Source: Halorubrum vacuolatum (GTDB lineage Archaea > Halobacteriota > Halobacteria > Halobacteriales > Haloferacaceae). Taken from it: 41,366 nucleotides of DNA. A program made the translations under genes and the position numbers. Numbering within the stretch: the stretch's first letter is position 1; each line of letters opens with the position of its first letter. Where the stretch lies: positions 1 through 41,366 of the forward strand of contig NZ_FZNQ01000020.1 of assembly GCF_900188065.1 (NCBI RefSeq), written 5' to 3'. Below are positions 1 through 40,678 of this stretch, piece by piece. The notes beneath the pieces were generated by a model. The model saw nothing but the letters and a program-made list of their open reading frames with translations, did not search any database and was not told the origin of the DNA.

Positions 1-615
1 AACTATAAAGACAATAAAAACGATAGTTTATGGCTAACAGATTCAAACTGGCCGGTAAAAGGACCAGTAGAAGACAGAGTCCTAAGAGACAGACCCAACA
101 GCCGATCATTCGATATAATAGGAAGAAAATTCGTAGATGACAATGGAAATTATGTTGCTTCAGCTGATAATCTTGACTTCAGAGGAATGGCAATAAGAAG
201 CGACTTACCTACTAAAGGAACACGAGTTGGAGATTTAGATTCAGGTAACAATCCAAGACTAGCTGTACACCCTGATGTAGCAGACACCTATAATCAAGAT
301 ATACTAGAGGGAAATGATAGTAAACTTTACTGGAATAGGGCAAGGCCTGCTATTCTTGCATTAAGACATGCTTCAAAGAGAGATTTGTTGGAAGAAAGCG
401 ATATTGCCTTACTAACCTTACCAATTGATGAAATTCCAGAGTTTGAAGGACCTTTAATTGGCAAATTCGATGAAGATGAGGAACAAGTATACCTTGACGA
501 ACAAATTGACAGGCAACAGTTCACAGATTACGTTATGGAACTAGAGAATAGTATAGAGTACTTTAAAAGTGAGGAAGAATACTTCGACATGCTTCGTTCA
601 AAGGCCGGACAATAA
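1..615 (+). CDS. Unknown protein, C-terminal 204 residues (5' end off window)
   Basis: The reading frame is open from the first base to the TAA at 613-615, so this is the C-terminal part of a longer gene. An internal ATG at 187 is possible as a start, but the 62 codons before it read as normal protein, so I take the gene as truncated by the window edge. I recognise no family. The last 60 residues are strongly acidic (a D-E-D-E-E stretch and many E and D) and probably helical. There is no membrane segment or Cys cluster. Arg is mostly AGA and Ile often ATA, unlike the CGN/ATC use of the genes after 3.2 kb, which fits a transferred replicon. It may encode an element function, but nothing in the sequence says which. 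Confidence 0.7.
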   Translation, partial: NYKDNKNDSLWLTDSNWPVKGPVEDRVLRDRPNSRSFDIIGRKFVDDNGNYVASADNLDFRGMAIRSDLPTKGTRVGDLDSGNNPRLAVHPDVADTYNQDILEGNDSKLYWNRARPAILALRHASKRDLLEESDIALLTLPIDEIPEFEGPLIGKFDEDEEQVYLDEQIDRQQFTDYVMELENSIEYFKSEEEYFDMLRSKAGQ

Positions 616-639
616 AGGATCAAGAATAACATGAGTTTT

Positions 640-843
640 TTAAGGAAAGCTATCTTCCTCAAAGCTCGCGTAGTTTGACTCTATCATATCCTTTAGATCG
701 TTGTCTCTATGGACATGCGCTACATCTCCTTCTTCACCACGAGCCTTCTCATTGAAATCAGTTACATCATACCACCACTCACAAGCATAACCCGAGTAAC
801 CACTTGTGTCAACTGTATCAGAAACACTCCATAAATTATGCAA
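640..843 (-). CDS. Possible small acidic protein, 67 aa
   Basis: This small frame lies 66 nt downstream of the Orc1/Cdc6 gene on the same strand and converges with the partial gene on the left. The product is acidic with three Trp and two Cys-free halves, so its composition is protein-like. The only start is a TTG at 843, since a TAA lies seven codons further upstream, and no clear ribosome site precedes it. I do not recognise the sequence. It could be a real small gene of the element or a chance frame; the evidence is composition and position only. Confidence 0.3.
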   Translation of the reverse strand: MHNLWSVSDTVDTSGYSGYACEWWYDVTDFNEKARGEEGDVAHVHRDNDLKDMIESNYASFEEDSFP

Positions 844-909
844 AAGTGTCTGTATCTTACATTATTTCGAAATACGGTATACAAAGCAAACTTGATGAAT
901 TAGGCCTAT

Positions 910-1935
910 TCAAGTGTTGCTGTATGGGTTTACTCTGTTTATTTCGCGTGTCTTTCCTTTTCGCCCGCCGTAGTGGTATTCTGAGGTGATTAGCTTGAGT
1001 TGTTCAAGTTGTTTGAGGTAGTCGCTGGTTCTGCGTTCGGTCAATGGTTTTTGACCGTAGGTTTGGCAGAGTTCTCGGTACTTGAGGTGGACGTCTCCGG
1101 TCCTCACACTGCTTTTTTGATCGGATTCAAGCTTTTCTATGGCTTGGTAGAGGAGTCGGTGGTGCTGCGTGAAGTCTCTCAATTGGGTGGCCGTGTATTG
1201 CTGTAAGGCCTCGCTAATCAAGCGTTTAGTATGTGCCTCAGTAACGACGTTGTCTGCTTGTTGGGCTGAAATGCGGAGCCATGTTAGGGCCGCTGCTAGG
1301 TTCTGGGTTGATGACGCAATGTACGTTAATGCTTCTCGGCGAAGGGATCGAGGCTTCATCGAGTTTTTCGCTCGATCTGCGAGCACTTTGTATATCTCTT
1401 CCCCGGTAAACGGTTCAAACCCTATTCTTTGGGGTTGTAACGTGCTGAATGTGCGCTCCTCTAACTGGTCGCGGAGCTCTCTGTGATTCGCGGTAATCAG
1501 TACTAGGCCTAGATCGGCTTCTATTCGTGAGAGAAAGTAGAGCAGGTCGTCTCCGTCATTCAGGAGAAGAAAGTCGAGATCATCAAGTACTATCGTGGTT
1601 TCTACAGCTTCGACTTGATTCTTCAGCAGTCGTTGAAGCTCTGAAGTGTGGTGGCCTGACCCAACTGTCTTCGAGGTTAGCTCGTTAACCGTTTTCCTCA
1701 AAACCTTATACTGTGTATCTTGTCTTTGACAGGAGATGTAGCATACATTAGTCCCCAAGCTTTCCAACTGCTTCTTAACAATAAGCGTCTTCCCAGTCCC
1801 TCTAGGACCGTGGACGTGAACGTTCTGCCTGTTTTCTAAGGCCTGTCTCAGTTGTTCTGATTCAGTCTCTCTGTCTAAGACCTCTTCTGGGATATATTCG
1901 TTCTTCAATGGTTCTAGGTCGTTGATAGTGCTCAT
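910..1935 (-). CDS. Orc1/Cdc6-type replication initiator ATPase (341 aa)
   Basis: This is an AAA+ ATPase of the Orc1/Cdc6 family, expected to bind origin DNA and load the helicase. Walker A is GPRGTGKT at residues 43-50 and Walker B is IVLDDLD at 115-121. A lid region follows at about 165-245, and a C-terminal winged-helix-like part at about 250-335 that would contact origin DNA. At 341 residues it is a little shorter than chromosomal Orc1 proteins (about 400), as is common for plasmid-borne forms. It is divergent from a second Cdc6-like gene, with 125 nt between them. The ATG at 1933-1935 is the start. Codon use is AT-rich and unlike the chromosomal genes to the right. The most likely role is replication or copy control of the integrated element. 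Confidence 0.85.
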   Translation of the reverse strand: MSTINDLEPLKNEYIPEEVLDRETESEQLRQALENRQNVHVHGPRGTGKTLIVKKQLESLGTNVCYISCQRQDTQYKVLRKTVNELTSKTVGSGHHTSELQRLLKNQVEAVETTIVLDDLDFLLLNDGDDLLYFLSRIEADLGLVLITANHRELRDQLEERTFSTLQPQRIGFEPFTGEEIYKVLADRAKNSMKPRSLRREALTYIASSTQNLAAALTWLRISAQQADNVVTEAHTKRLISEALQQYTATQLRDFTQHHRLLYQAIEKLESDQKSSVRTGDVHLKYRELCQTYGQKPLTERRTSDYLKQLEQLKLITSEYHYGGRKGKTREINRVNPYSNT

Positions 1936-2060
1936 ACAAACATAGTTCGGCGCATTGTTTTACCCCAGTTTGAGAAAGGCAGGTTTCGCATGAACACAAT
2001 TCTGGAATATTAAATATAATAGACTAAGTACTCAAGCGAAACGCGGTGTAATAAATAGTT
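1936..2060. promoter_or_regulatory. Divergent promoter region and candidate replication origin
   Basis: This 125-nt spacer separates two divergent Orc1/Cdc6-type genes, the usual place for an archaeal plasmid origin. It holds an inverted repeat, GTTTCGC at 1983-1989 and GCGAAAC at 2036-2042. The similarity extends outward as GTTTCGC-W-TGA. The arms flank an AT-rich core, TATTAAATATAATA near 2008-2021, that could serve as unwinding element and as TATA box for the rightward gene. No canonical haloarchaeal ORB element was recognised. The origin assignment is inferred from position and symmetry only. Confidence 0.45.
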
Positions 2061-2918
2061 TTGAAACAGTTGGTTACTACACATAATTCATACTGGGAGG
2101 GGAAAAGAAAAACATTGTTCGATAATTCTACATCATCACGGAAAAAGGGAGTACTAAGATCTGAAGCCTATCTAACCACACATTACACACCTGAAAAGCC
2201 GGTAGGCAGAGAAACAGAAATCGGTGAAATCGCAGAGGCCGTCAGGCCTTTAACCCACAGACATGACCCAAATAACTTGATAATATTCGGGCCTGCGGGA
2301 ATCGGGAAGACAACCTGCACAAAGTATGTCATAACTGAATTGGAGAACCAGGCCTCCGTTAAATCAGTGTATATCAACTGCTGGCAATACAACACCCGTT
2401 CAAGCCTCTTAACCGAACTACTGATTCAACTCGGTTATCCAGCGCCCCGGAAAGGCAAATCAATCGACGCACTTCTGTCCAAGGTCAGAGAATGGTTGGA
2501 TAAGAATAGAGGTGTAGCAGTCGCATTAGACGAGTTCGACCAACTAGATGATCAAACCAAAATCATCTACGACCTCCAAATGATTAACGAAGAAGCCGAA
2601 AACCCGATAGGCCTCTTAATGGTCTCAAACCAGCATCCAACCCGTATCACTCTCGATCCCAGAAGCCAGTCCCGCTTAAGCTGTAAAACACTTGAATTCC
2701 ACTCCTACAACGCACCCCAACTAGAAAACATCCTCCAAGACCGAGTAGACAAAGCGTTCAGGCCAGGCACCGTACCCAAAAAAGTAGTCGAACAAATAGC
2801 TGAAACCGTAGCCGAAAACAGCGGCGACTGCAGAAAGGCCCTAACACTATTACTGAATGCAGGAAGAAAAGCAGATCAAGAAGGGAAAAACAAAGTCACA
2901 ATCAACGACATCCAATAA
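2061..2918 (+). CDS. Cdc6-like AAA+ ATPase lacking a winged-helix domain (285 aa)
   Basis: This is a second Orc1/Cdc6-family AAA+ protein. Walker A is GPAGIGKTT at residues 77-85, Walker B is VALDEFD at 154-160, and a sensor-1 like MVSN is at 187-190. The lid domain runs to the C-terminus and ends with VTINDIQ. The protein stops where the winged-helix origin-binding domain normally begins, so it is an ATPase plus lid only; similar short Cdc6/Cdc18-like proteins occur on haloarchaeal plasmids. The start is a TTG at 2061, because an in-frame stop lies three codons upstream and a TATA-like element about 45 nt upstream suits it. Arg is mostly AGA or AGG. It probably works with the divergent initiator, for instance as a regulator or loader. 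Confidence 0.8.
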   Translation: MKQLVTTHNSYWEGKRKTLFDNSTSSRKKGVLRSEAYLTTHYTPEKPVGRETEIGEIAEAVRPLTHRHDPNNLIIFGPAGIGKTTCTKYVITELENQASVKSVYINCWQYNTRSSLLTELLIQLGYPAPRKGKSIDALLSKVREWLDKNRGVAVALDEFDQLDDQTKIIYDLQMINEEAENPIGLLMVSNQHPTRITLDPRSQSRLSCKTLEFHSYNAPQLENILQDRVDKAFRPGTVPKKVVEQIAETVAENSGDCRKALTLLLNAGRKADQEGKNKVTINDIQ

Positions 2919-3163
2919 ACACAGATTCACGGAGAAGGCCTATACACCAATTCCCCAGCCCAGTCAGAATACCATTAACGAAGCATTCTACAAGGACGCG
3001 ACCCCGGTATTTTATACCAAAAGCCACGTTATACTACAAATACACGGAAAGGCCCTATACCCCCAAAATCAAGGGACAGCGCCAAGATCAACACGCCAAA
3101 ACACTTGAGGCCTGATCTGAAACCCTCGAAAAACCGGGTTTCAGGCCTCGAAAAAAGTATTTG
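2919..3163. repeat. Noncoding repeat-bearing tail of the left element
   Basis: No convincing gene lies here. Two imperfect direct repeats of about 22-24 nt, at 2928-2949 and 3043-3066, share CACGGA, AAGGCC and CTATAC-type blocks. Between them is a perfect short inverted repeat, GGTAT-TTT-ATACC, at 3006-3018. A longer hairpin at 3108-3148 lies beside the tRNA fragment. Three AGGCCT palindromes (2936, 3108, 3143) are in this stretch. It could hold iterons, recombinase arm sites or a second origin; the sequence does not decide. Confidence 0.5.
3108..3148. repeat. Hairpin next to the tRNA-Thr attachment fragment
   Basis: AGGCCTGATCTGAAACCC at 3108-3125 pairs with GGGTTTCAGGCCT at 3136-3148 across a 10-nt loop, with a 5-nt bulge in the left arm. 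Each arm is followed by CTCGAAAAA. An AGGCCT palindrome forms the base of each arm. It may be a terminator for the upstream ATPase gene or an arm-type site for the element's integrase. Confidence 0.5.
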
Positions 3164-3207
3164 TCTTGGTAAGGACGAGAGCCCGGGTTCAAATCCCGGC
3201 CTAGGCT
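3164..3207 (+). other. tRNA-Thr(GGT) 3' fragment, attachment site of the left element
   Basis: The sequence reads as a tRNA from the anticodon loop to the discriminator. Loop TTGGTAA (anticodon GGT at 3168-3170) is followed by 3' anticodon stem GGACG, variable loop AGAGC, and T arm CCGGG-TTCAAAT-CCCGG (3183-3199). The acceptor strand is CCTAGGC (3200-3206) with discriminator T at 3207. No 5' half (GCCTAGG, D arm) precedes it. A broken tRNA with the break at the anticodon loop is the usual product of tyrosine-recombinase integration. Because the fragment reads rightward, the element must lie to its left and the chromosome to its right. The intact copy should be off the left edge. Confidence 0.8.
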
Positions 3208-3232
3208 TGTTCTTCGTCGCTGAACTCATAAC

Positions 3233-15358: not shown

Positions 15359-15449
15359 GTTCCGATCGACACAGGGAGAACTGGTAAACGTTCGTCCGGT
15401 TGAGATCCCCTGTGGAGCCCTCAGTGAACGGTCGTCGGGGCGGTCGTCT

Positions 15450-16697
15450 TTACTGATCAAGCGGTTCCCGAAGCGACCACGTATCCGTCGCCGGATCGAG
15501 CCGATGCGGCTCCGCACCACGCTCCGTGAGGATGCCGCTGTGAAACAGCATGGCTTTCAGCTGGAACACGGCCGGGGAATGATAGACGGCCCCGTCGGTG
15601 AGCGCGTTCGCCTGCAGGTGACCGTCCTCATCGAGCACTCGGCTTCGGGCGTCCTCGGTTCCACGGACGAACAGCTCAACCGTGAACGTTGGGTGCTGGA
15701 CGTGAAGCCATTCGACCAGATCGATAAGCGATGGGTCCGTAATGCCCTCCTCGTGCATCGTCTGGAGTTCCGCGACGAGCAACCGCGTCGCCGGGTACGA
15801 CCAGACGACGCGACGGACGAGCATCCCCCACTCGGGAGCGAGATCGACGAAGCGTTTCCGAGCGCGTTTCCACCGCTCGAAGGTCGCGAGCGCTGCATCC
15901 ACGGATCCGTAGCGATGCAATGCAAACCGGACGACCTCCCGGCCCAACGGGGAGAGCACGAGTCGATCGGGCCGTTTTTCAATGAGACCGAGAAAGGCCG
16001 CTCCGTCACGGGCGCTATCGGTCGCCGCGACGACGTACGCCGAGAGCACCTCATCGGTGGGCCGCTCGTGGTAGAGCGCGAGCGGATACGCGAGGTAGTT
16101 CTTCGGATGGTTCAGTCCGAACGACTTGTTCGCGACACCCTGGGCGGTAGCCTGAAACCGTATTGCCGTCGCTTCCTCCGACGTTCGATTCCCCACGACC
16201 CGGGGAACCTCGAGGGATGTGACGGCTCCCCGCGAATCGACGCCGAGAACACCGACGTTGAGTTCGCGGGCGAGCGTGCGGCTCGATTGGGAGATCGCAT
16301 CGAGCGGTGCAGTCACGTACGCGACGTTCGCCTCGTGCAGGCGATCGTAGGCTTGGATAACGCCACGCTCGACATCGACCGGTGCGTTCGCTGTGTATCC
16401 TTTTGCCTCGATCGCGATGAGCGGTGGGTGATCGCCGAGTCGGTCGACCGCGAGAAACTCGGAGTCGAGCGGAGCGACCCCGACGAGATCCGGATAGCCA
16501 CCGCCGATCCGGACGTGATTGAACGGCGCGAGTTGTGATCGCACGTCCGCAGCGATCGGCTCCCCGGCGAGCCACTCATCCATCGCGAACTGCGTGTCCG
16601 TCACGGCGTACGTGTTCGGCTCGTCAGGCTCCGGAAAGAGGCGACGTTTGGTGTGTGCGAGGACCTGTGGTTCCGAAAGCGACGCCGCGGAGGCCAT
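15450..16697 (-). CDS. Unknown protein with PD-(D/E)XK-like nuclease core (415 aa)
   Basis: I do not recognise a named family. The N-terminal half contains GGGYPDLVGV at about 85-94 and LIAIEAKGYT at about 113-122. This D...E-x-K arrangement is that of PD-(D/E)XK nucleases, and the following VERGVIQAYDRLHEA looks like the helix that usually comes next. The C-terminal half (about 215-415) is helical, with several Trp/Arg-rich segments, and could be a DNA-binding or effector domain. There is no signal peptide or membrane segment. It is a single gene, 91 nt from the macro-domain gene and on the same strand. A nuclease for foreign or damaged DNA is possible; that is inference from the motif only. 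Confidence 0.8.
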   Translation of the reverse strand: MASAASLSEPQVLAHTKRRLFPEPDEPNTYAVTDTQFAMDEWLAGEPIAADVRSQLAPFNHVRIGGGYPDLVGVAPLDSEFLAVDRLGDHPPLIAIEAKGYTANAPVDVERGVIQAYDRLHEANVAYVTAPLDAISQSSRTLARELNVGVLGVDSRGAVTSLEVPRVVGNRTSEEATAIRFQATAQGVANKSFGLNHPKNYLAYPLALYHERPTDEVLSAYVVAATDSARDGAAFLGLIEKRPDRLVLSPLGREVVRFALHRYGSVDAALATFERWKRARKRFVDLAPEWGMLVRRVVWSYPATRLLVAELQTMHEEGITDPSLIDLVEWLHVQHPTFTVELFVRGTEDARSRVLDEDGHLQANALTDGAVYHSPAVFQLKAMLFHSGILTERGAEPHRLDPATDTWSLREPLDQ

Positions 16698-16802
16698 AAT
16701 TCGACATAAACAGGTGATCTAATCAAACTTCGGTGGCGGACGGCGTGCCGTAGATCGGAAGCGATCCTCACGCGATGTGCTCTCACGAAGGGTATCACCC
16801 CT

Positions 16803-18101
16803 CTATGAGGCGGTCGGCTCCGAATGTTCCCCCACGCGACACACCGCCTCGGCTAGGACCTCCGCACCGATTCGGAGGCTTCGTTCATCGATGTCGAACG
16901 TCGACGTGTGATGGGCGCTCGGGTGATCGGTTCCGATGATGAGGTACGTCGCCAGTCCGCCGTCGTCCTGTACGCGCTCCATGAGGAAGGTGGCGTCCTC
17001 GCTCGCGCCGAAGTCGGCGACCGGAACGACGTCGTCGACGGCATCGACGTCGGCCGCAACCGTCGCGACGTGGTCGATGAGTGCCGGGTCGCTATCGGCA
17101 CGGGGTGATTCGCTGATGACCTCGAAGGAGAGATCACAGCCGTGAGCGTGTGCCGCCCCGTCGAAGGCACGCCGGAGCCGACGTTTCATATACTCCATCA
17201 GTTCGGTCGTCTCCCCGCGCGCTTCCGCTTCCACGTGCGCGTGGTCCGCGATGACGTTGCTCGCGGAACCGGCCTCACAGTAACCGAGGTTGACGCGGGT
17301 CATCCCCTCGCCGTGTCGCGGGATCCCGTATGCGTTCGAGATGGCGGTTCCGAGCGCCTGCATGGCGTTTTCGCCCTCGTGTGGGGCTTTTCCGGCGTGT
17401 GCGGAGATCCCTTCGAACGTCGCGTCGACGTGACACATCGCCAAGGCGCGCTCGATGCCGGCGACGACTCGACCGGTGGGGTGATCGAGCCCGACGTGTG
17501 CCGCAAAGAGATACTCAATATCCTCGATGAAACGGCTCTTCGCCATCGGAAACCCGCCGCCGCTGATCTCCTCGGCCGGCTGAAAAAAGACGGTTAGCCG
17601 CCCGCTGAAGTCGCTCGCTTTCACGCGTTCGAGGACGGCAAGCCCCCACGTCATATGCACGTCGTGGCCGCAGGCGTGCATCGTCCCCTCGACCTCCGAG
17701 CGGAACCCCTCACGCGCCGGCTGGTGAGTCGATGCGTCCGACTCCTCGATGAACAGCCCGTCGATATCGACCCGAAGGCCGATTGAGGGACCTGCACCGC
17801 GGTCCAGCACCGCCACACATCCCGTGCTGCCGCCAGCCATCGATTCGAGGAGGTCCTCGCGGGCCCCACGCTCACGGGCACGCGTTAGCCACGGCTCGGA
17901 GGCGTCGTCGTCGAGAACGGCCATCCGATCCCCGGGATCGTACGCCTCACGACCGACCGCCAACTCGTCGACGCCGATCCGTTCGATCTCCTCGACGAGG
18001 CGGTGGGTCGTGTAGAACTCCCGCCAGCCGGGCTCCGGGTGACGGTGAAACCCACGGCGCAGTTCGACAAGCCGGTCCGAACCGGATTCCGTCATGTCCA
18101 T
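16803..18101 (-). CDS. M20D amidohydrolase, AbgA-like (432 aa)
   Basis: This zinc peptidase-family enzyme carries ACGHDVH at 143-149 and FQPAEE at 173-178, with late His residues in HPSAHHTS. The layout resembles E. coli AbgA, the p-aminobenzoyl-glutamate hydrolase subunit. Both have an early inserted segment after the first helix pair (DRMAVLDDDASEPWLTRARE, then GGSTGCVAVLD) that ordinary M20D hydrolases lack, and the same length (436). The frame is open far upstream, but the Met at 18101 begins the conserved part; a Met 12 codons earlier is possible. It is divergent from the dehydrogenase gene. Release of p-aminobenzoate from folate-like compounds is inferred; other N-acyl amino acid substrates are possible. 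Confidence 0.85.
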   Translation of the reverse strand: MDMTESGSDRLVELRRGFHRHPEPGWREFYTTHRLVEEIERIGVDELAVGREAYDPGDRMAVLDDDASEPWLTRARERGAREDLLESMAGGSTGCVAVLDRGAGPSIGLRVDIDGLFIEESDASTHQPAREGFRSEVEGTMHACGHDVHMTWGLAVLERVKASDFSGRLTVFFQPAEEISGGGFPMAKSRFIEDIEYLFAAHVGLDHPTGRVVAGIERALAMCHVDATFEGISAHAGKAPHEGENAMQALGTAISNAYGIPRHGEGMTRVNLGYCEAGSASNVIADHAHVEAEARGETTELMEYMKRRLRRAFDGAAHAHGCDLSFEVISESPRADSDPALIDHVATVAADVDAVDDVVPVADFGASEDATFLMERVQDDGGLATYLIIGTDHPSAHHTSTFDIDERSLRIGAEVLAEAVCRVGEHSEPTAS

Positions 18102-18218
18102 GCGTGACACATGCACGGGCTTAACGTACACGATCATCGTGTATTTTGAATACAAAAAAGGGTAAGTAACCGACCGACGAAGGGCGGACATCACCGCTTC
18201 ACCGCGGAAGACCCCAGC
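18102..18218. promoter_or_regulatory. Divergent spacer with two small palindromes
   Basis: Between the amidohydrolase and dehydrogenase genes lie CGATCATCG (18131-18139, perfect palindrome) and GTATT-TTG-AATAC (18141-18153, perfect inverted repeat). The AT-rich TTTTTTGTATTC on the minus strand overlaps the second and may be the TATA region of the amidohydrolase. Adjacent palindromes over a promoter suggest an operator, but no regulator gene is next to it. Confidence 0.4.
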
Positions 18219-19220
18219 ATGAGCGAGCATGAGTCCGTCGACGACGATCGCACAGCAGCCGACCATCCCGACATCGTCGTCCTCCGTGAGGGGACGGAAG
18301 GGCTTTCGATGGCGTCGTACGCGGAGACGCTTCGCGAGCGGCTGCCCGACCGGACGGTCGTCCTCGCACGAACCCCACGCGAGGAGCGGGAACTCGTCCC
18401 GAACGCCCGCGTCGTGACCGGGATCACCGTCGAGGCGGATCTGATCGCGGATGCGGATCGGTTGGAGCTGTTCGCCTGCACCTTCGCGGGTACCGACCAC
18501 GTTCCGGTCGAGCGGCTCGTCGACCACGGTGTCGCCGTGACGAACGCGGGCGGGATCCACGCACCCGGTATCGCCGAGCAGTCGATCGCCAACATGCTCG
18601 TCTTCGCCCGGCGACTGCATGAGGGATGGCGCCGCAAATCGAACGCCGAGTGGCGCCACTTTCAGTCGTTCGAGTTCACCGGCAGCACCGTCACCGTGAT
18701 CGGTCTCGGATCGATCGGCCAGGAGATCCTCCAACGGCTGGCGGGCTTCGAGGTCGACACCATCGGGGTCAGATACACCCCCTCGAAGGGCGGGCCAGCC
18801 GACGAGGTGATCGGGTTCGAGACGGACGCGATCCACGATGCGCTCGCACGCAGCGACTACGTCGTCATCGCGTGCCCCTTGAACGACCTCACCCGTGGGC
18901 TGATCGGCGAGGCCGAGTTGGCGACGCTGCCGCCGCACGCCGTCCTCGTCAACGCCGCCCGCGGCGGCATCGTCGACACCGACGCGCTCGTCTCCGCGCT
19001 TCGATCGAGCGGGCTTCGCGGCGCCGCGCTCGATGTGACCGACCCCGAGCCGCTGCCCGCCGATCACCCGCTGTGGGATCTGGAGAACTGCCTCATCACC
19101 CCGCACACCGGCGGACACACGCCGAAACACTGGGACCGTCTCGCGGACATCGTCGCCGACAACGTCGCCGCGTTGGACGGCGACGGCGAACTCAGAAACC
19201 TCGTGGCGGCGCCCGAATGA
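18219..19220 (+). CDS. D-2-hydroxyacid dehydrogenase (333 aa)
   Basis: This NAD(P)-dependent enzyme interconverts 2-ketoacids and D-2-hydroxyacids. The nucleotide-binding motif is GLGSIG at 162-167. The catalytic triad is R248 (NAARGG), E277 (DPEPLP) and H296 (TPHTGGH). The hinge signature around NAGGIHAPGIAEQ (109-121) is conserved. The first 17 residues are a polar extension. Haloarchaeal homologues include the D-2-hydroxyacid dehydrogenase of Haloferax mediterranei. It is divergent from the AbgA-like gene and converges with the TFS gene. The specific substrate is not evident. Confidence 0.92.
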   Translation: MSEHESVDDDRTAADHPDIVVLREGTEGLSMASYAETLRERLPDRTVVLARTPREERELVPNARVVTGITVEADLIADADRLELFACTFAGTDHVPVERLVDHGVAVTNAGGIHAPGIAEQSIANMLVFARRLHEGWRRKSNAEWRHFQSFEFTGSTVTVIGLGSIGQEILQRLAGFEVDTIGVRYTPSKGGPADEVIGFETDAIHDALARSDYVVIACPLNDLTRGLIGEAELATLPPHAVLVNAARGGIVDTDALVSALRSSGLRGAALDVTDPEPLPADHPLWDLENCLITPHTGGHTPKHWDRLADIVADNVAALDGDGELRNLVAAPE

Positions 19221-19243
19221 AATCCTGCCCACAGTGAACGGCG

Positions 19244-19258
19244 GGGGTTCCGCTTTTT
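19244..19258 (+). terminator. Possible T-rich terminator after the dehydrogenase gene
   Basis: A GC-rich stretch (CGGGGGTTCCG) followed by TTTTT at 19254-19258 lies 24-38 nt past the stop codon and before the convergent TFS gene. Archaeal termination needs only a T run, and this one is well placed. No strong hairpin is seen. Confidence 0.4.
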
Positions 19259-19273
19259 GCCGGCTTGTATCCC

Positions 19274-19603
19274 TTAATTATATCCGCGCCACCGTCTTCC
19301 ACACTCCTTGCATTTAAAAAAGCGCGTCGGCGGCTCGTCCGCCGAGGCGGTCTGTTTGATCGTATACCATGCCTCCTCGTGTCCACAGCGATCGCAGTGA
19401 ACGTCGGTCGCGGTCGGTTTTCCCTCGAAGTTCGCGCCTTCCTCGGTCTCGATCACCTCGGCGTCCGTCTGTTCCTCGGTGGACTCGAAGCGCGCCGCCA
19501 ACTCCGCGTCACGATCCGTTCTCGCGCCACAGTCCTCGTTGCGACAGACCATGGCGTCGTCCCGCGAGACCATCATCGTGCCGCACTCCTCACAGAACTG
19601 CAT
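19274..19603 (-). CDS. tfs: Transcription factor S, TFIIS-like RNA polymerase cleavage factor (109 aa)
   Basis: This is an archaeal TFS, which helps stalled RNA polymerase cleave its transcript. The N-terminal zinc ribbon has CEECGTMM and CRNEDCG. The C-terminal ribbon has CDRCGHEEAW, the acidic hairpin ADEP that enters the polymerase active site, then FFKCKECGRRWR. Length matches the family (about 105-112). The start at 19603 (MQFCEECG) is chosen because the ribbon begins there; nine codons upstream are also open. It follows the DPF-repeat gene by 49 nt on the same strand. Haloarchaea often have more than one TFS, and which paralogue this is cannot be told. Confidence 0.92.
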   Translation of the reverse strand: MQFCEECGTMMVSRDDAMVCRNEDCGARTDRDAELAARFESTEEQTDAEVIETEEGANFEGKPTATDVHCDRCGHEEAWYTIKQTASADEPPTRFFKCKECGRRWRGYN

Positions 19604-19652
19604 ATCGCTGCCTACGTGCCCGCACCACAAAAGACCCCCATCCCGGGCGGGT

Positions 19653-20273
19653 TCACGAGTGCGTATCGAACTGTGGCCCGTCCTCGCCGACCATCGGGCA
19701 GTTTCGAACCCGGAACTCGTTGCCCTCGAGCACCTCGAGTATCTCGCCGTCCTCGTGGGTACACGCCGTTTCGGGTGGTTCCGAGAGATGTGGGCAGCGC
19801 TGACAGTAGAGCCGTTTGTTCACGACGTGATCGACCCCGTCGGTCATCGCTCCCGGCCCGACCGTGTCATACTCCTCATCCGCCGCCAGCGCCTCCCAGA
19901 CCTCGTCGTCGTGTAGCTCGTCCACCTCCATCCGCTCGAAGGGGTCATCGATGTCGACGCCGTCCCCCTCGGTCAGCGCGGCGAACGGATCCTCGTCGGT
20001 ACCGACCGCATGGTCCCCAGCCGATCCCGTCGGCGATGACGTATCCCCCTCCTGTATGGCCGCGAACGGATCCTCATCTGCAGGCGGATCGTCCGCGGGA
20101 GGACCGTCCACATCGTCCTCGAGCGCGGCGAACGGATCCTCGTCCGCGGGTTGATCGCCGTCATCGTCCGTCTCCAAGGCGGTAAACGGATCGTCGTCCG
20201 CGGACTGATCGTCACCGTTCGCCTCAAGCGCGGCGAACGGATCCTCGTCCGACTTCCGGTCGTCCCCGCTCAT
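19653..20273 (-). CDS. Acidic protein with six DPF repeats and a C-terminal Cys cluster (206 aa)
   Basis: The first 115 residues are a low-complexity acidic chain carrying six DPF motifs, at 11-13, 28-30, 46-48, 68-70, 95-97 and 110-112. Five have the form (E/D)DPF(A/T)A(L/I). The spacing is irregular, 15 to 27 residues. The rest is folded-looking (DDEVWEALAADEEYDTVGPG) and ends with Cys at 157, 160, 171 and 192 plus two His (CQRCPH, ACTH), likely a zinc site. The ATG overlaps the stop of the coiled-coil gene (ATGA), so the two are coupled. The DNA repeats with CGAACGGATCCTCGTC, so copy number may vary between strains. Function unknown; the motif array suggests multivalent docking. Confidence 0.85.
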   Translation of the reverse strand: MSGDDRKSDEDPFAALEANGDDQSADDDPFTALETDDDGDQPADEDPFAALEDDVDGPPADDPPADEDPFAAIQEGDTSSPTGSAGDHAVGTDEDPFAALTEGDGVDIDDPFERMEVDELHDDEVWEALAADEEYDTVGPGAMTDGVDHVVNKRLYCQRCPHLSEPPETACTHEDGEILEVLEGNEFRVRNCPMVGEDGPQFDTHS

Positions 20274-21316
20274 CGGCGATCATCCCGGGTTCCCCCAGGG
20301 CCCTCCGTCGGTACGCTCCCGGTGTCGTCGGTACCGGATCCCCTCGAACCGGCCGCATCCCCCGAGCCGGCCACCTCCCCCTCCAACGCGGGTGGGTCGC
20401 CAGCGATCAGCCGAGACGTGCCGAAAAAGCCCGATTTGGGCGTCAGGTCGCTGAACTCCCGGTCACAGTGTGGGCAGCGTGGCGCCGTGAGCAACGTCAA
20501 TCGCACCGTCTCCTCACAGTGTGTACACGCCGCCTTCCGGATCCCGTGGGTGTTCGCGAGCGCCGTCAGGCGCGTCAGCGTCTCGGCATCCGTGGTTCGC
20601 CGCTCGACGACCCGAAGCCGTCGTTGGACGCTCACGACCGCGTTCGCGATCCTGGAGAGCTTTTCGGAGACGTCGGTATCGACTTCACCACCTTCGACCG
20701 TCGACTCCATCGATTCGATCCGGTCGGCGAGGTCGGCGACCGTCCCACGCAGCTCCCCTACCGCGTCCGATGTGGCGTTGTCCTCGCCGGCGTCGAACGC
20801 GTCCGCTGGGCTGCCGTCCGTCGTCCGGTCTTCCAGTTCCGCGACGGTTTCGCGAAGCGTCTCCACCGTCGACGCGAGTTCAGGATGGTCGTGGTCCGCG
20901 GGGGCCTTCTGCTCCGCCTCGCGGTAGATCCGCACGAGACGTGTCCGTACGTCCTCGATCTTCTCTTCGGTATCGTTCCGTACCTCCGACAGATCATCGG
21001 ACAGTTCGTCGAGGTCCTCGGCGAGCTCCGACACCTGCGCGGAGAGATCGGCGACATCCTCGTGGAGCTCGGAGATGTCCGCATGCAGGTCCGTCCGGTC
21101 GTCGGTCAGTTCCTCACCATCCGTCGAGCCGTCAGCCGCGGTCTCGAGTTCGACGAGACGGTCCTCTATCGTTTCGAGTTCCTCCATCGACGGCACGTCG
21201 ACGCCCTCGGCCTCCGCGATGGCGATGAGCGCACGCATGAGCACCTCGGTTCGCTCGATGCCGGCGGCCGCCGCGGCTTCGTCGATCACCTCGTCGAATG
21301 CGTCGATATCGCTCAT
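20270..21316 (-). CDS. Coiled-coil protein with zinc ribbon, function unknown (348 aa)
   Basis: The N-terminus (1-40) is a compact helical segment. A long heptad-rich coiled coil runs from about 45 to 135, and more heptads at 145-165 and 185-240. A zinc ribbon follows with C264-x2-C267 and C281-x2-C284, then FFGTSRLIAG and a disordered Gly/Ser/Asp tail of about 40 residues. There is no signal or membrane segment. It is upstream of and coupled to the DPF-repeat gene, and a TATA-like ATACTTAAG lies about 40-50 nt before its ATG. Shape suggests a cytoplasmic scaffold or nucleic-acid-associated protein. I know no established function. Confidence 0.85.
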   Translation of the reverse strand: MSDIDAFDEVIDEAAAAAGIERTEVLMRALIAIAEAEGVDVPSMEELETIEDRLVELETAADGSTDGEELTDDRTDLHADISELHEDVADLSAQVSELAEDLDELSDDLSEVRNDTEEKIEDVRTRLVRIYREAEQKAPADHDHPELASTVETLRETVAELEDRTTDGSPADAFDAGEDNATSDAVGELRGTVADLADRIESMESTVEGGEVDTDVSEKLSRIANAVVSVQRRLRVVERRTTDAETLTRLTALANTHGIRKAACTHCEETVRLTLLTAPRCPHCDREFSDLTPKSGFFGTSRLIAGDPPALEGEVAGSGDAAGSRGSGTDDTGSVPTEGPGGTRDDRR

Positions 21317-21492
21317 CCCGACTCACCAACCATTCTGCCTTCCGTTCGAGCGGCTCACTTAAGTATCCTCCCGCGTAGTTCTCTCGATCGATAGCGCCAC
21401 GACGGGAACGACGATGTCGTCCGTGTCGCGGACGGGTTCGGCCGACCGTTCCGGGCGACGATGCCAGTGAACAATGCCTCCACGTCGCCACC

Positions 21493-22329
21493 TCACCGGA
21501 TCTTTCTGACGTCGCTGATGTCGAATCCACCGTCGTGGATCTCCGTCTCGAAGCGGACGATGTCTTCCTCTTCGATCCGTGCGAGCACGCCGCGGAACTC
21601 CCGCACGACCATCGTCCGGGCCCGTTGTGATCCGCCGCTTTCCCAGGTGAACCGAAACGTCCCGCTCGCGGCGTCCATCAGCGTGCCGAACTCCCTGTCC
21701 GTTAACGCGTCCTCGTTGACCAACACGAGAATGAGCCCGCCCCAGTGATACGCTGCCTTCTTCAATCCGCGCATGACCATCGTGATGTCGCTCCATGCCA
21801 GATCATCGGAGACGGAGGAGACGAGGTCGGTCACCGAATCGATGCAGATCAGGCTCTCTGTCGCGTGGGCGGTGAGGTATTCGCCGAGCGCGGTCAGCAC
21901 GTCGTCTGGACGGTCGCGCTGACCGAGTTCGGCGAGCGAGGTCGTCTGGTCTTCATACCACTCACGTGGAAGCGGGCTGAGCTGGAAGAACTCCGGGGAG
22001 AGGTCCCGGAACGTGATCCCGTCGGCGGCGCTCTCGACGATCTCTTCGGCCATGGTGTAACGCATCTCGCGAATGATGTCGCCCGGATCCGCGGTAAACG
22101 AGAGGTAATGCACCTCGGAGGACACCCGCGCTCCGTCGGCGACCTCGCCGTAGTAGAGGTCGAACAGATCCGTATCAGTTCGTGCCAACGCACTCATCGC
22201 CGCACTCGTGTAAAGGAACTCGCGGGCACCGGCGCCCGATTCGCCGGCGAGAAGCACGACGCTGCCCGGCGGCGAACCGCCGCCGATGATCGAATCCAGC
22301 CGTGCGATCCCGAACGGTACACTCGACAT
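21493..22329 (-). CDS. RecA/KaiC-superfamily protein with degenerate P-loop (HTR-like, 278 aa)
   Basis: The fold is that of RecA/KaiC-like ATPases: FGIARLDSIIGGGSPPGSVV at 6-25 is the usual lead-in. Walker A is changed, with GESGAGAR at 29-36 where GxxxxGK(T/S) is expected, so the catalytic Lys is Ala. Walker B LICID at 160-164 is present. Similar proteins in haloarchaea are annotated HTR-like or RecA-superfamily ATPase. It follows beta-RFAP synthase by 18 nt on the same strand, and the coiled-coil gene is 176 nt further on. It may bind but not hydrolyse ATP, acting as a sensor or scaffold. Confidence 0.85.
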   Translation of the reverse strand: MSSVPFGIARLDSIIGGGSPPGSVVLLAGESGAGAREFLYTSAAMSALARTDTDLFDLYYGEVADGARVSSEVHYLSFTADPGDIIREMRYTMAEEIVESAADGITFRDLSPEFFQLSPLPREWYEDQTTSLAELGQRDRPDDVLTALGEYLTAHATESLICIDSVTDLVSSVSDDLAWSDITMVMRGLKKAAYHWGGLILVLVNEDALTDREFGTLMDAASGTFRFTWESGGSQRARTMVVREFRGVLARIEEEDIVRFETEIHDGGFDISDVRKIR

Positions 22330-22347
22330 ACTACGTATCCCGAGGGC

Positions 22348-23406
22348 TCATCGCTTAGTGTTGTTGCTCGGAACGCGTGTTTTCCGATCCGGGTCCTGCA
22401 CCCGTGCACCCTCGTTGGCGCCACCTACCACCGTCACCTCGCCGTCGACTCCCGCCGCCGACAACGCCGCCGCCCCCGCCTCGCGTGCTGCATCCGCGTG
22501 ATCGACGTCGGTGACGCCGTAGACCGTCGGCCCCCACGAGGACTGCCCGGCACCGAAGACCGCCGGCGACGACTCCAAGGCGGCAACGACGTCCCCGACG
22601 GGGGGGCGATAGACGCCACCCTGCTCGTCGGCATACCACGCCCCGTTGAGTCGACCGATCTCCGCAACCGCGGCGCCGAAGGTCTCCGCACGGCCCTCCG
22701 CGACCGCGGGCAGCACGCGACGCGTCACGATCCCAGAGATCCGATCGGCGAGCTCCGGGGAGGCCCGCTCGACGGCGTCGCGCATGGCGGCGTCCTCGAT
22801 GGCACCGTTTCGTCCCGGCTTCGCGTCCGGACGGACGATGAGGAACCGCCAGCCGTCGGGGATCGGGTGCCGAACCGCGACCGCGGGTACCGACCAGCTG
22901 CCATCGGCCGGCCGCTCCGTCGTGAATCGCGTCGTCGGATGGCCGGCATCCAGGATGAATCCCCCTCCCTCGAAGGCGGCGACCCCAACCCCCGACCGAC
23001 CGCCTCGGCCGAGCGCCGGTGCGCGCCTGCGAACCTCCGGGTCCCGCGCGTGTGCGTGCGAAATAGCGGCGAGCGTCGTCAGCGCGACCTGCGTCCCGCT
23101 CCCCAAGCCGGTATGCCGCGGGAGTGCGGACTCGACCGTGAGCGCCGCGCCCTCGACCTCGAGCAGCGACGTGGCCCGCTCGGCATATGTCCGCACATCC
23201 GCGACGAGCGCGTCCATCGATCCGCCAGCCGCGCCATCGACGGCGTCGTCGGCCACCTCGACGGTTATCGCCCCGGATGGAGCTGCCTCGACGGACACCC
23301 GCGGCTCGGCAAGCGTGATCCCAAGCGCCCCGTAGAGCCGCTCGTGTGAGAGGCTGAGGTTGCAAAACCCGAAGTGCAGCCGGGCGCCGGCGCTGACACG
23401 GACCAT
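22348..23406 (-). CDS. Beta-ribofuranosylaminobenzene 5'-phosphate synthase (352 aa)
   Basis: This GHMP-kinase-fold enzyme (MptG type) joins p-aminobenzoate to phosphoribosyl pyrophosphate, the first committed step to the methanopterin side chain. The N-terminus SAGARLHFGFCNLS and the loop LPRHTGLGSGTQVALTTLAA (115-134) are characteristic, as is GRGGRSGVGVAAFEGGGFI. Length is near the family norm (about 320-350). Haloarchaea lack methanogenesis but keep homologues, so the product may be a pterin-type C1 carrier or another compound. It is cotranscribed with the RecA-like gene downstream. MptA is coded 3 kb away. Confidence 0.88.
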   Translation of the reverse strand: MVRVSAGARLHFGFCNLSLSHERLYGALGITLAEPRVSVEAAPSGAITVEVADDAVDGAAGGSMDALVADVRTYAERATSLLEVEGAALTVESALPRHTGLGSGTQVALTTLAAISHAHARDPEVRRRAPALGRGGRSGVGVAAFEGGGFILDAGHPTTRFTTERPADGSWSVPAVAVRHPIPDGWRFLIVRPDAKPGRNGAIEDAAMRDAVERASPELADRISGIVTRRVLPAVAEGRAETFGAAVAEIGRLNGAWYADEQGGVYRPPVGDVVAALESSPAVFGAGQSSWGPTVYGVTDVDHADAAREAGAAALSAAGVDGEVTVVGGANEGARVQDPDRKTRVPSNNTKR

Positions 23407-23545
23407 CGGTTGGATCAGCTACGTGCGCGGCGGGTAAAACCACCGTGTCGACGGCCGTGCTTGCCGGACAGTCCGACCGCTGTCGACATACCGAGCCGAG
23501 ACCAAAGCTGTCTGAGCGCCCCGAGCGACGCGATCGCCCCGTCGA

Positions 23546-24694
23546 TCACGGCCCCTCGTAGTTTTCCAACCGCCGGACGCTGGGGATATCCGTGACCACG
23601 TCCTCATCGCGGAGTATCCGCCGACCGGCGCGCCGACGTTCGTCACCCTCCTCACGGTTCTCAGCTCGGTTTCGGCCACGGGCCCACTGCTCGTATGCGC
23701 GGGCGCTCGCCTCGTACTCGATCGCCGCATCCGCGAGGGTGCCGGCGATGGTACGGAAGGTTTGATACACACGGTCGAACGGTTCGTGGTCGACCGGATC
23801 CCGCTCAAGTCGTTCTGCGACCGATTCAAACCGATCGGTTGCGCGTTCGAACTCCCGAGCCGCCCGCGACCACGAACGCGATCGATAGGCCCGCTCGGCG
23901 TCGATCCATGCCCGATGGCCCTCGGTGAATGGACGACGCTCATCCGCGACCGCGACCAGCGCATCGCGCTCGGCAGCGAGCTGATCGACCTTCCCGGCGT
24001 ACTCCTCGACGGTCAGTTGTTCGGAGGCGTCTGCCACCTCCGGATCGCTCACCGACGAGAGCGACTCCATCCGTTCGTCCGCGGCCTCGACCCGGTCCTG
24101 AAAGCGGTTCCACGTGACCGTGCTTATCGAGTCGCCCTGATGGGCGATGAGCACCTCGCGAAACGCCTCGAACGCCGGGCCCACTTTGGCCTGCGTTCGG
24201 GCGCTCTCCCGAATGAATTCGCCGACGTCGCGTAGGTCGTCGATCCGTGCGCGTTGGTCGCTGTTTGCCGGTTCCGCCGCTCGATCAAACCGGTCGTTCG
24301 CCTCACGGACGCTCCGCGCGATCGGCACCCAGCGGAACCGCGTCGCCGACGCGCGAACGTCGAGGAAGGAGTCGGCGTTCCCGCTCTCGGCGTACAGTTC
24401 CAACGCTTCTCCGAGCAAGCTATCGCCCTCCTCGAGCCGTTCGAGGGCGACCCGCTCGTCCTCCGTAAGCTCCGGCTCGTCGGCGTCGTCGTGTTCGGCT
24501 TCGTCATCGGCCGGCTCCTCCTCATCGTCCGGTGTGGCCTCGTCGTCGGCCGGCTCCTCGGGCGGTGTATCCTCGTCGTCGGCTGGGTCCGCACCGTCAT
24601 CTGTATCCTCCGCGGGAGGGTCGATGTCGCCACAGCCGGCGAGGACGCCAGCCGCGACCACTCCCAAATACGCACGTCGGTCCATTGTCGTCAT
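23546..24694 (-). CDS. Tat-exported lipoprotein, function unknown (382 aa)
   Basis: The N-terminus has [18 protein letters not shown], with a twin Arg at 6-7 and lipobox Cys at 21, so a Tat lipoprotein is likely. A 50-residue stretch of D, E, P and A (25-78) forms an acidic linker. The remainder is all-helical, with repeated acidic heptads and Arg/Ala-rich segments and no enzymatic motif. A TATA-like GTATATATG on the minus strand (about 24709-24716) lies 20-odd nt before the ATG. It is divergent from tgtA. I do not recognise a family beyond haloarchaeal surface lipoproteins. Confidence 0.85.
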
Positions 24695-38960: not shown

Positions 38961-39002
38961 TGCTCCGGCGGGGATTTGAACCCCGGTCATTGCCTCGAGA
39001 GA
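38961..39002 (-). other. tRNA-Glu(CTC) 3' fragment, attachment site of the right element
   Basis: Read on the minus strand, the loop CTCTCGA (39001-38995, anticodon CTC) is followed by 3' stem GGCAA, variable loop TGAC, and T arm CGGGG-TTCAAAT-CCCCG. Acceptor strand CCGGAGC follows, with discriminator A at 38961. This matches the 3' part of haloarchaeal tRNA-Glu. No 5' half (GCTCCGG, D arm) is present on the right. The break at the anticodon loop is again the signature of integration. The orientation puts the element to the right of 39002 and the intact tRNA beyond the right edge of the window. Confidence 0.78.
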
Positions 39003-39478: not shown

Positions 39479-39973
39479 TTATCCGCAGATGCACTCGTGA
39501 GACAGACCAACCAAATGGACGATTTGCCGGTGGATCCGAGTTGAAAGTGCCGCCATCGTCTCCGCTCGCTCCCGAGTAGCGATAGCGTCCTGATAATACG
39601 TCTGTGCGCGGTTTTCCGTCCAGAGATCGTCAAGCCGGGACGCAACTTCCTCACTGATGAACCCGACTTCGGAACTGCGATTGATTGCAGTCGTATGTGA
39701 CTGTGGAGGGTTCGCGGGATCCTGATGCCCCTCGTAGAGTAGCCAAAACAGGAACGTCTTTTCAATGGAGGTGAATGCTGCTTCGATCGTCAGCGTGTAG
39801 TAGCCATCAGTCAGCAGTTTCTCTGCCCCCGAAAGCGACCGACAGGCCTTACGAAGTTGAACGAGTCCCGCGTCAGAGACGTCAAGCCCTCTCTCCGAGT
39901 TTTGACCACCGTGGCGGAACGCCGCTTCGGCATCGGAAAGTTCCGGCTCAATATCGTCAAGCGTGATCGGCAT
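39479..39973 (-). CDS. HEPN-domain protein, probable toxin of a TA pair (164 aa)
   Basis: The protein is all-helical, with the HEPN-type core ACRSLSGAEKLLTDGYYTLTIEAAFTSIEKTFLFWLL (about 44-79) written as two adjoining helices. Candidate active-site residues are R146 to H153 (R-x6-H, fitting the RX4-6H pattern) or the ENRAQTYY segment at 120-127, whose Tyr could be an AMPylation site. It lies 3 nt downstream of a nucleotidyltransferase gene, the standard MNT-HEPN order. HEPN toxins are ribonucleases neutralised by the partner; that role is inferred from the pairing. Confidence 0.8.
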   Translation of the reverse strand: MPITLDDIEPELSDAEAAFRHGGQNSERGLDVSDAGLVQLRKACRSLSGAEKLLTDGYYTLTIEAAFTSIEKTFLFWLLYEGHQDPANPPQSHTTAINRSSEVGFISEEVASRLDDLWTENRAQTYYQDAIATRERAETMAALSTRIHRQIVHLVGLSHECICG

Positions 39974-39976
39974 TGC

Positions 39977-40660
39977 TCACTCGCCCCCTCGTGCTGATTC
40001 ATACACCGCCTCTCGAACGTCCGCGAGTGCATCGGTTCGTTCCAAAACGATTCCCTCATCGAAAATGTCCTGTAGCTGTTCCCCGTGAGATGCAGCAGAC
40101 TCGATCGTTTCGACGAGCACCTCGAACTGGTACCGTTCACCCCGAAACGTTCGCTCCTCCATGTCCCTGGCCAGCTGAGTTGCGAGACGACGTCCGTACG
40201 TAAGGCCTCCCTTGATGATGACGAGGAGATCAATGTCACTGCTCCGATCGGCGTTTCCACGCGCAACGCTCCCGAAGAGGATGATGCCTACAAGTTCGTC
40301 CACGTCATCAAAGGCTTCGGCATCGCTGGCAAGTTCATCAAGGAAGGCCTGTATCGGCTTTCGAAACTCCCGCTGTGGGATGCTGAACAGTGGGTCAGCC
40401 CCGATGATGTGGTCTTGATCGATCCTGATCTGTGCTGGTTTCCCACTCACGATATCGAGGACACCCATCCGTTCGAGGAGTTCGACAGAGCGCGAGACGG
40501 ATGACACGTCGGAGTCAGTGATCGTCGCTAATTCTTTCTGCGTGAACTCCTCGAACGGATTATTCACCAAATGATGGAGGATATCTTGCATCGCCTGGTA
40601 CCGAAAGACCCGTTCTTCCGGAAAGGGGAAGTCGAGAAGAACCCGCGTCTGTTCTTGCAT
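39977..40660 (-). CDS. MNT-type nucleotidyltransferase with N-terminal winged helix (227 aa)
   Basis: Counting from the TTG three codons earlier, an N-terminal winged-helix domain (FTQKELATITDSDVSSVSRS) spans about 25-90. The minimal nucleotidyltransferase domain follows, with GSVARGNADRSSDIDLLV at 133-150 carrying the metal-binding Asp pair. Such proteins AMPylate and silence the HEPN toxin. The fused winged helix suggests that this antitoxin also controls its own promoter. An inverted repeat overlaps the start codon. I took the ATG at 40660 rather than the TTG at 40669. It is followed directly by the HEPN gene. Confidence 0.85.
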   Translation of the reverse strand: MQEQTRVLLDFPFPEERVFRYQAMQDILHHLVNNPFEEFTQKELATITDSDVSSVSRSVELLERMGVLDIVSGKPAQIRIDQDHIIGADPLFSIPQREFRKPIQAFLDELASDAEAFDDVDELVGIILFGSVARGNADRSSDIDLLVIIKGGLTYGRRLATQLARDMEERTFRGERYQFEVLVETIESAASHGEQLQDIFDEGIVLERTDALADVREAVYESARGGE

Positions 40661-40678
40661 AATAGACAAACTATTGCA
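40656..40678. promoter_or_regulatory. Inverted repeat at the MNT start, candidate operator
   Basis: TGCATAATAG (40656-40665), ACAAA, then CTATTGCA (40671-40678) form an imperfect inverted repeat overlapping the ATG of the MNT gene. Its position suits autorepression by the winged-helix domain of that protein. Confidence 0.45.

Follow-up and report, generated by a model that had tools for sequence, protein, structure and literature searches.

The palindrome AGGCCT is iterated along the whole length of an integrated element of the haloarchaeon Halorubrum vacuolatum, one end of which forms the left 3,164 bases of the 41,366-nucleotide stretch of DNA analysed here (the window). The enrichment acts on DNA and not on protein, and the sites are conserved beyond their surroundings, with turnover of their positions. 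The signature is heritable in a lineage of elements, independent of the host and confined to the element. The window is the full contig C21, one of 72 in a 3.48-Mb haloarchaeal assembly designated G000; contigs are denoted by C and loci by L, and G135, G155, G200, G240 and similar labels denote other haloarchaeal genomes. Five AGGCCT-rich elements were found, in G000, G200, G135, G155, and G240.

An element integrated at tRNA-Thr(GGT) has one of its ends in the left 3,164 bases of the window (Table 1). The GC content is 39–48% in the left 3.2 kb, against 57–69% across most of the window core. The intact tRNA-Thr(GGT) copy is located on contig C36 of the same assembly and not in the window. The sequence immediately behind it (C36:92811–95919) encodes a tyrosine integrase and holds 11 AGGCCT in 3.1 kb, against none in the 4.8 kb on the chromosomal side of the tRNA. 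Contig C34 (10.3 kb), which carries VirD4- and VirB4-like genes and 29 AGGCCT, and contig C26 (7.5 kb), with 18, both match the same relative. Assembled on four contigs (the window end of C21, C36, C34, and C26), the G000 element contains 69 AGGCCT in 24.1 kb, with the order of the middle contigs C34 and C26 taken from relatives. The G000 and G200 elements are incompletely assembled. Small open reading frames (ORFs) were annotated in part.

A preliminary description of the window, made from its letters, had listed 11 AGGCCT in this end and about seven in the core. All 11 coordinates proved exact, as did the codon phases given for four of them, and the region from 3.4 to 38 kb indeed contains seven sites (4033, 6599, 8561, 26976, 33829, 35668, and 36166). 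The zero-order expectation for the first 3.4 kb of the window is 0.66. AGGCCT ranks first among the hexamers of the element end (11 sites against a first-order expectation of 0.64, Poisson P 1e-10) and again the top hexamer in C36:92811–95919 (11 sites against 0.72 expected, P 3.5e-10). This other half of the element lies outside the window and is an independent replication of the enrichment. The order-4 Markov comparison proposed in that description, run on the 3-kb end, predicts 9.7 sites against the 11 seen and is uninformative at this length because nearly all AGGCC and GGCCT 5-mers there belong to AGGCCT itself. Enrichment that ended with these 3 kb had been named as evidence against a signal, and the rest of the element and four relatives are also rich.

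In 129 kb of rich elements, 292 AGGCCT were observed, compared with expectations of 28 (order 1) and 47 (order 2), and AGGCCT is the top hexamer in G000, G135, G240, and G155 (order 2, P 2e-22 to 4e-68). An order-4 model of the pooled rich elements predicts 370 sites against 442 observed. Throughout their length, rich elements have 1.3–2.9 AGGCCT per kb, about one every 350–800 letters. In the same 129 kb, the other NGGCCN palindromes fall below expectation (observed/expected: TGGCCA 5/20, CGGCCG 9/20, GGGCCC 2/19). The flanks of AGGCCT show no strong consensus, except that T is rare beside the outer A, and near-misses are most enriched at the outer positions (CGGCCT 1.9-fold, GGGCCT 1.5-fold). 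Several gaps near 300 nt had been noted in the window, but the spacing in large elements is random (coefficient of variation close to 1), and a periodicity of this length is rejected.

When codons were shuffled synonymously within each gene, 58 +/- 5 AGGCCT were obtained against 297 observed, a five-fold excess that extends to all three phases (38, 147, and 112 observed against 8, 32, and 19 from the shuffle). ORFs make up 81% of the element length and hold 78% of the sites, so that noncoding DNA has its share. The earlier view that protein sequence does not explain the motif is upheld by this excess, by the occurrence in all phases and by the noncoding sites. AGGCCT falls less often at conserved protein columns (23% vs. 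33%), and the codons at sites diverge from the family consensus more often (identity 0.55 vs. 0.63, P 9e-4); the force on AGGCCT is therefore strong enough to shape proteins where this is tolerated.

Where AGGCCT positions could be aligned, the partner is intact in 45% of cases, compared with 17% for neighbouring in-phase control hexamers, while about a third of the aligned partners have two or more mismatches. Sites are thus kept above background and yet turn over. In pairs of rich elements, sites are shared 1.6–5-fold above local in-phase controls. Most rich/non-rich pairs keep 0–9% of sites against 3–21% of controls, and non-rich elements with 66–73% DNA identity lack most of the sites and keep fewer of them than of the controls.

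The enrichment follows the element and ends at its borders. Integrase identity is 91–93% in G135 and G200 and 67–73% in about a dozen further elements, nearly all in tRNA-Thr(GGT). The complete element of G135 (C1:1251313–1288147, 36,834 bp) is bounded by exact 36-bp att repeats and contains 90 AGGCCT, compared with 11 in the 63 kb that flank it. A search with VirD4 (host family, 170 genomes; class, 391 genomes) yielded the elements of G155 and G240: a rich contig with 72 AGGCCT in 56.5 kb, and an island of about 105 kb with 191 AGGCCT inside against eight in 115 kb outside. The chromosome flanking rich elements has 0.07–0.17 AGGCCT per kb. In the VirD4 tree the five rich elements form one clade (support 99/97). 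VirD4 identity to the query is 81–100% in these five and at most 73% in all 23 others, and AGGCCT density around VirD4 is 2.0–3.1 per kb in the former against 0–0.6 in the latter. Among the five shared operon genes tested, the rich clade is resolved only in the VirD4 tree.

The trait does not track the hosts. Richness is INDEPENDENCE from host, in that rich and non-rich elements both occur in genera g1, g6, and g13, and sister elements that match the rich ones in GC content, tRNA site, and host genera lack the enrichment. No AGGCCT-rich genome was found among 226 haloarchaea (maximum about 0.3 per kb) or 393 Halobacteriota (about 0.7 per kb), a search that left out nanohaloarchaeal and other DPANN genomes, and a host genome signature is thereby rejected for the sampled Halobacteriota. 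The preliminary description had proposed a DNA-level role tied to the source replicon, which accords with an enrichment that ends at att and tracks the element lineage. Its suggestion of a nanohaloarchaeal source finds no support in the relatives, since all the close ones found lie in Halobacteria. A recombinase signal, also suggested there, is unlikely because elements without AGGCCT use related integrases at the same tRNA-Thr. Non-rich elements as a group are near expectation (131 AGGCCT observed against 142), which rejects a general avoidance of the motif in all other elements, though single sister elements have none (G336 and G314, 40 kb each). Plasmids and viral contigs searched by way of the AAA/Cdc6-like protein, integrase, VirD4, VirB4, and a backbone protein gave no rich relatives, only distant matches or none. 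Distant homologues of the backbone protein common to G240 and G155 lie outside AGGCCT-rich DNA.

Element proteins match VirB4 (Pfam AAA_10, P-loop_TraG, CagE_TrbE_VirB) and VirD4 (TrwB_AAD_bind, TraG-D_C), and the characters of an integrative conjugative element are present: integrase, att repeats at a tRNA, defined ends, and VirB4 with VirD4. Because VirB4, VirD4, and an integrase are encoded, the rich elements are probably conjugative. A relaxase was not recognised among the element proteins scanned with Pfam, some ORFs being left unscanned. In the complete G135 element, a pilin-like protein (L056:17510–18709, + strand) has a class III signal peptide and a C-terminal FGE-sulfatase/lectin-like domain (Pfam 1e-15), and a reverse-transcriptase-like protein is encoded downstream of it (G135:C1:1286832–1287827). 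The pair resembles a diversity-generating retroelement, carried here by an archaeal conjugative element. The same element lacks CTCGAG altogether (0 vs. 15 expected), and several sister elements likewise have few or no copies of CTCGAG or CGATCG; restriction-site avoidance is a candidate explanation of this scarcity.

Modules appear to be exchanged among these elements. Apart from VirD4, the genes of the type IV secretion system (T4SS) in G000 resemble those of rich relatives no more than those of non-rich ones (VirB4 32% vs. 42%), yet are equally dense in AGGCCT; therefore, AGGCCT density was acquired or regained after module exchange. Within the otherwise rich island of G240, about 11.6 kb with a type I restriction-modification (R-M) system (G240:C7:2563201–2574767) contains one internal AGGCCT and is apparently recent cargo. 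The R-M module of G276 (L065/L080), whose element is otherwise non-rich, shares 85–90% DNA identity with positions 15394–24455 of the G135 element, and AGGCCT occurs mostly at the same positions in both, as if the G276 module had moved out of a rich element. As this shared module illustrates, AGGCCT can serve as a tracer of gene flow between elements.

A C5 DNA methylase is absent from four of the five rich-host genomes (G000, G135, G200, and G240), the only other methylase family searched being PF01555, which occurs in 11 of 12 genomes irrespective of their richness. The only methylase recognised on the complete 36.8-kb element is a type I HsdM, which non-rich elements also carry. A cognate C5 methylase is thus improbable in those four hosts, and the methylation that the preliminary description had listed among possible roles is weakened. 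A type II restriction target is rejected, AGGCCT being enriched rather than avoided and C5 methylases missing in four of five hosts. No paper on AGGCCT in haloarchaea was found in the literature.

AGGCCT may be regarded as a highly iterated palindrome (HIP), which forms a DNA signal spread over the entire element in one probably conjugative lineage. Its sites would be recognised by lineage-associated machinery that handles DNA, either to transfer, segregate or compact the element or to label it as self. Selection would maintain the density of AGGCCT and not individual sites; density is taken as the selected trait because the sites are randomly spaced and are individually gained and lost. We propose this reading, with its putative reading protein, tentatively, and with nearly as much belief as doubt; recognition by a protein, and a benefit from it, are what we infer from the sequence patterns. 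A broader version, in which the element family possesses its own iterated palindrome and a lineage-specific machinery that moves, partitions or self-marks the element in any host, captured modules being gradually written into the code, is possible but rather doubtful.

Several results weigh against distributed recognition. No gene is both exclusive to rich elements and common to all five, two of which are incompletely assembled. VirD4 groups the rich elements but has eight diagnostic residues and no extra domain, and the adjacent winged-helix protein has zero diagnostic residues; both were rejected as specificity factors. By the approximately unbiased (AU) test, rich monophyly is not rejected for the two neighbours of VirD4 (P 0.24, 0.15), and the link between VirD4 and richness may therefore reflect merely slower evolution of VirD4. 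For this reason, and given the few diagnostic residues, VirD4 is not claimed as the reader. The conservation of AGGCCT is not significant alone in three of ten rich pairs, and it is also compatible with a repair bias free of function.

Such a bias would be a ratchet in which a GGCC or AGGCCT methyltransferase coupled with strand-biased mismatch repair turns near-misses into AGGCCT, leaving the sites as a by-product with little function. A ratchet of this kind has been proposed for cyanobacterial HIPs (Elhai, 2015; PMC4390886). The palindromic motif, the random spacing, the HIP-like bias of near-misses to the outer positions (as in HIP1) and a density within the HIP range of about 500–2,500 per Mb all agree with it. 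It must, however, act on the element while sparing the chromosome of the same cell, the C5 methylase is missing in four rich hosts and the PF01555 methylases do not separate rich from non-rich genomes, and the losses of sites are not concentrated at one cytosine (G2>A 20, G3>A 19). Distributed recognition is favoured because of these methylase results and because a host-wide ratchet would write the chromosome too; we regard the ratchet as unlikely. Equally unlikely in our view is a donor signature, by which the elements mostly live in an unsampled AGGCCT-rich archaeal lineage and entered their present hosts recently. It would account for an element GC content of 44–52%, far under the 60–72% of host chromosomes, and for a cognate factor not found on the elements, but no sampled genome reaches the element density, and equal-GC sisters that occupy the same tRNA in the same genera lack the enrichment.

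It is still less probable that AGGCCT is modified or recognised as self by a host or element system (e.g., a guard that is Chi-like or based on modification), so that site-rich elements survive. The sister elements with no site in 40 kb would suit such a system, and a palindrome could presumably act in either direction, but the non-rich group is undepleted and the analysis identified no system of this kind. Ordinary coding or compositional bias, or chance, to which the order-4 prediction for the 3-kb end alone might point, has a negligible probability in view of the replication in the other element half and four relatives and of the synonymous shuffles. The preferred reading remains that of distributed recognition sites whose density is kept by selection.

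Within the element end, the ATPase at 2061–2918 has relatives with 54–69% identity in seven haloarchaeal loci and in Methanohalarchaeum, and with 30–34% in two DPANN genomes.

Table 1. Features of the element end at the left of the window.
Feature	Position	Strand	Remarks
Right end of integrated element	1–3164	.	GC 44%, 11 AGGCCT; cut at position 1 by contig end
ORF running off contig end	1–615	+	No family assigned
AGGCCT site 1	343–348		Arg-Pro phase
AGGCCT site 2	902–907		Noncoding
Cdc6/Orc1-like AAA+ ATPase, C-terminal winged helix	910–1935	-	Pfam Cdc6_C 2e-18
AGGCCT site 3	1206–1211		
AGGCCT site 4	1505–1510		
AGGCCT site 5	1839–1844		
AAA+/Cdc6-lid ATPase	2061–2918	+	Pfam Cdc6_lid 6e-17; kept at same end of sister elements
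AGGCCT site 6	2244–2249		Arg-Pro phase
AGGCCT site 7	2350–2355		Gln-Ala phase
AGGCCT site 8	2609–2614		Gly-Leu phase
AGGCCT site 9	2936–2941		Noncoding
AGGCCT site 10	3108–3113		Noncoding
AGGCCT site 11	3143–3148		Noncoding, 22 nt ahead of att
att repeat, 44-nt copy of tRNA-Thr(GGT) 3' end	3165–3208	+	100% match to G000 C36:92768–92811

Three further AGGCCT lie right of 38 kb in the window (39844, 40203, and 40345), within about 500 bp, in lower-GC DNA that encodes an MNT nucleotidyltransferase/HEPN-like pair (39479–40669). The pair is a probable toxin-antitoxin system, and the region may derive from a rich element. Where the GC content falls at the right end of the window, a T-arm-like tRNA fragment (GGCGGGGATTTGAACCCC; 38967–38986, - strand) is possibly an att remnant; ARAGORN reported no tRNA there. 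Elsewhere in the same genome, positions 8048–9651 of L024 (G000:C43:1–20000) hold five AGGCCT in 1.3 kb at 41–44% GC and adjoin an 84% identical copy of window positions 775–891, probably another fragment of a rich element.

Among known systems, haloarchaeal conjugative-like elements integrated in tRNA genes share with the present ones the att duplication at tRNA-Thr(GGT), a tyrosine integrase beside the tRNA, a VirB4/VirD4 operon, Cdc6-like genes at the far end, and type I R-M cargo. They differ in that the AGGCCT signature is found only in the clade of G000, G200, G135, G155, and G240, in which a relaxase was not recognised. KOPS, SRS, Chi, and the TRS repeats of Streptomyces TraB are short over-represented signals read by DNA-handling machines, and they are asymmetric and oriented, or clustered. 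AGGCCT is likewise short, over-represented, and distributed, and VirD4, encoded in every rich element, is a DNA pump of that same broad class. In contrast to those signals, AGGCCT is a perfect palindrome, unoriented and randomly spaced, and an oriented signal of the Chi or KOPS type is rejected.

The HIPs of cyanobacteria are an old puzzle, in which selection and a by-product of repair are disputed, and the cyanobacterial genes and sites all share one genome. By analogy, AGGCCT seems to resemble these sequences most closely among known systems. HIP1 is GCGATCGC, with alternates such as GGCGCC, and HIPs are iterated in cyanobacteria at the densities cited above (Elhai, 2015; PMC4390886). AGGCCT is also a GC-rich palindrome, present at 1,300–2,900 per Mb, the strongest oligomer of its sequence and numerous in coding and noncoding DNA, with near-misses biased to the outer positions and a distribution restricted to one clade and missing in its sisters. 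Whereas HIPs mark whole cellular genomes and accompany cognate methyltransferases, AGGCCT belongs to archaeal mobile elements, ends at att with the host chromosome unenriched, and has no cognate C5 methylase found for it. The palindrome is confined to elements of 37–105 kb in chromosomes without it, and non-rich sisters in the same tRNA gene and genera provide controls; therefore, the question of selection versus by-product becomes testable. If the lineage-specific reading is true, a mobile element would carry in AGGCCT an identity code at the level of the replicon.

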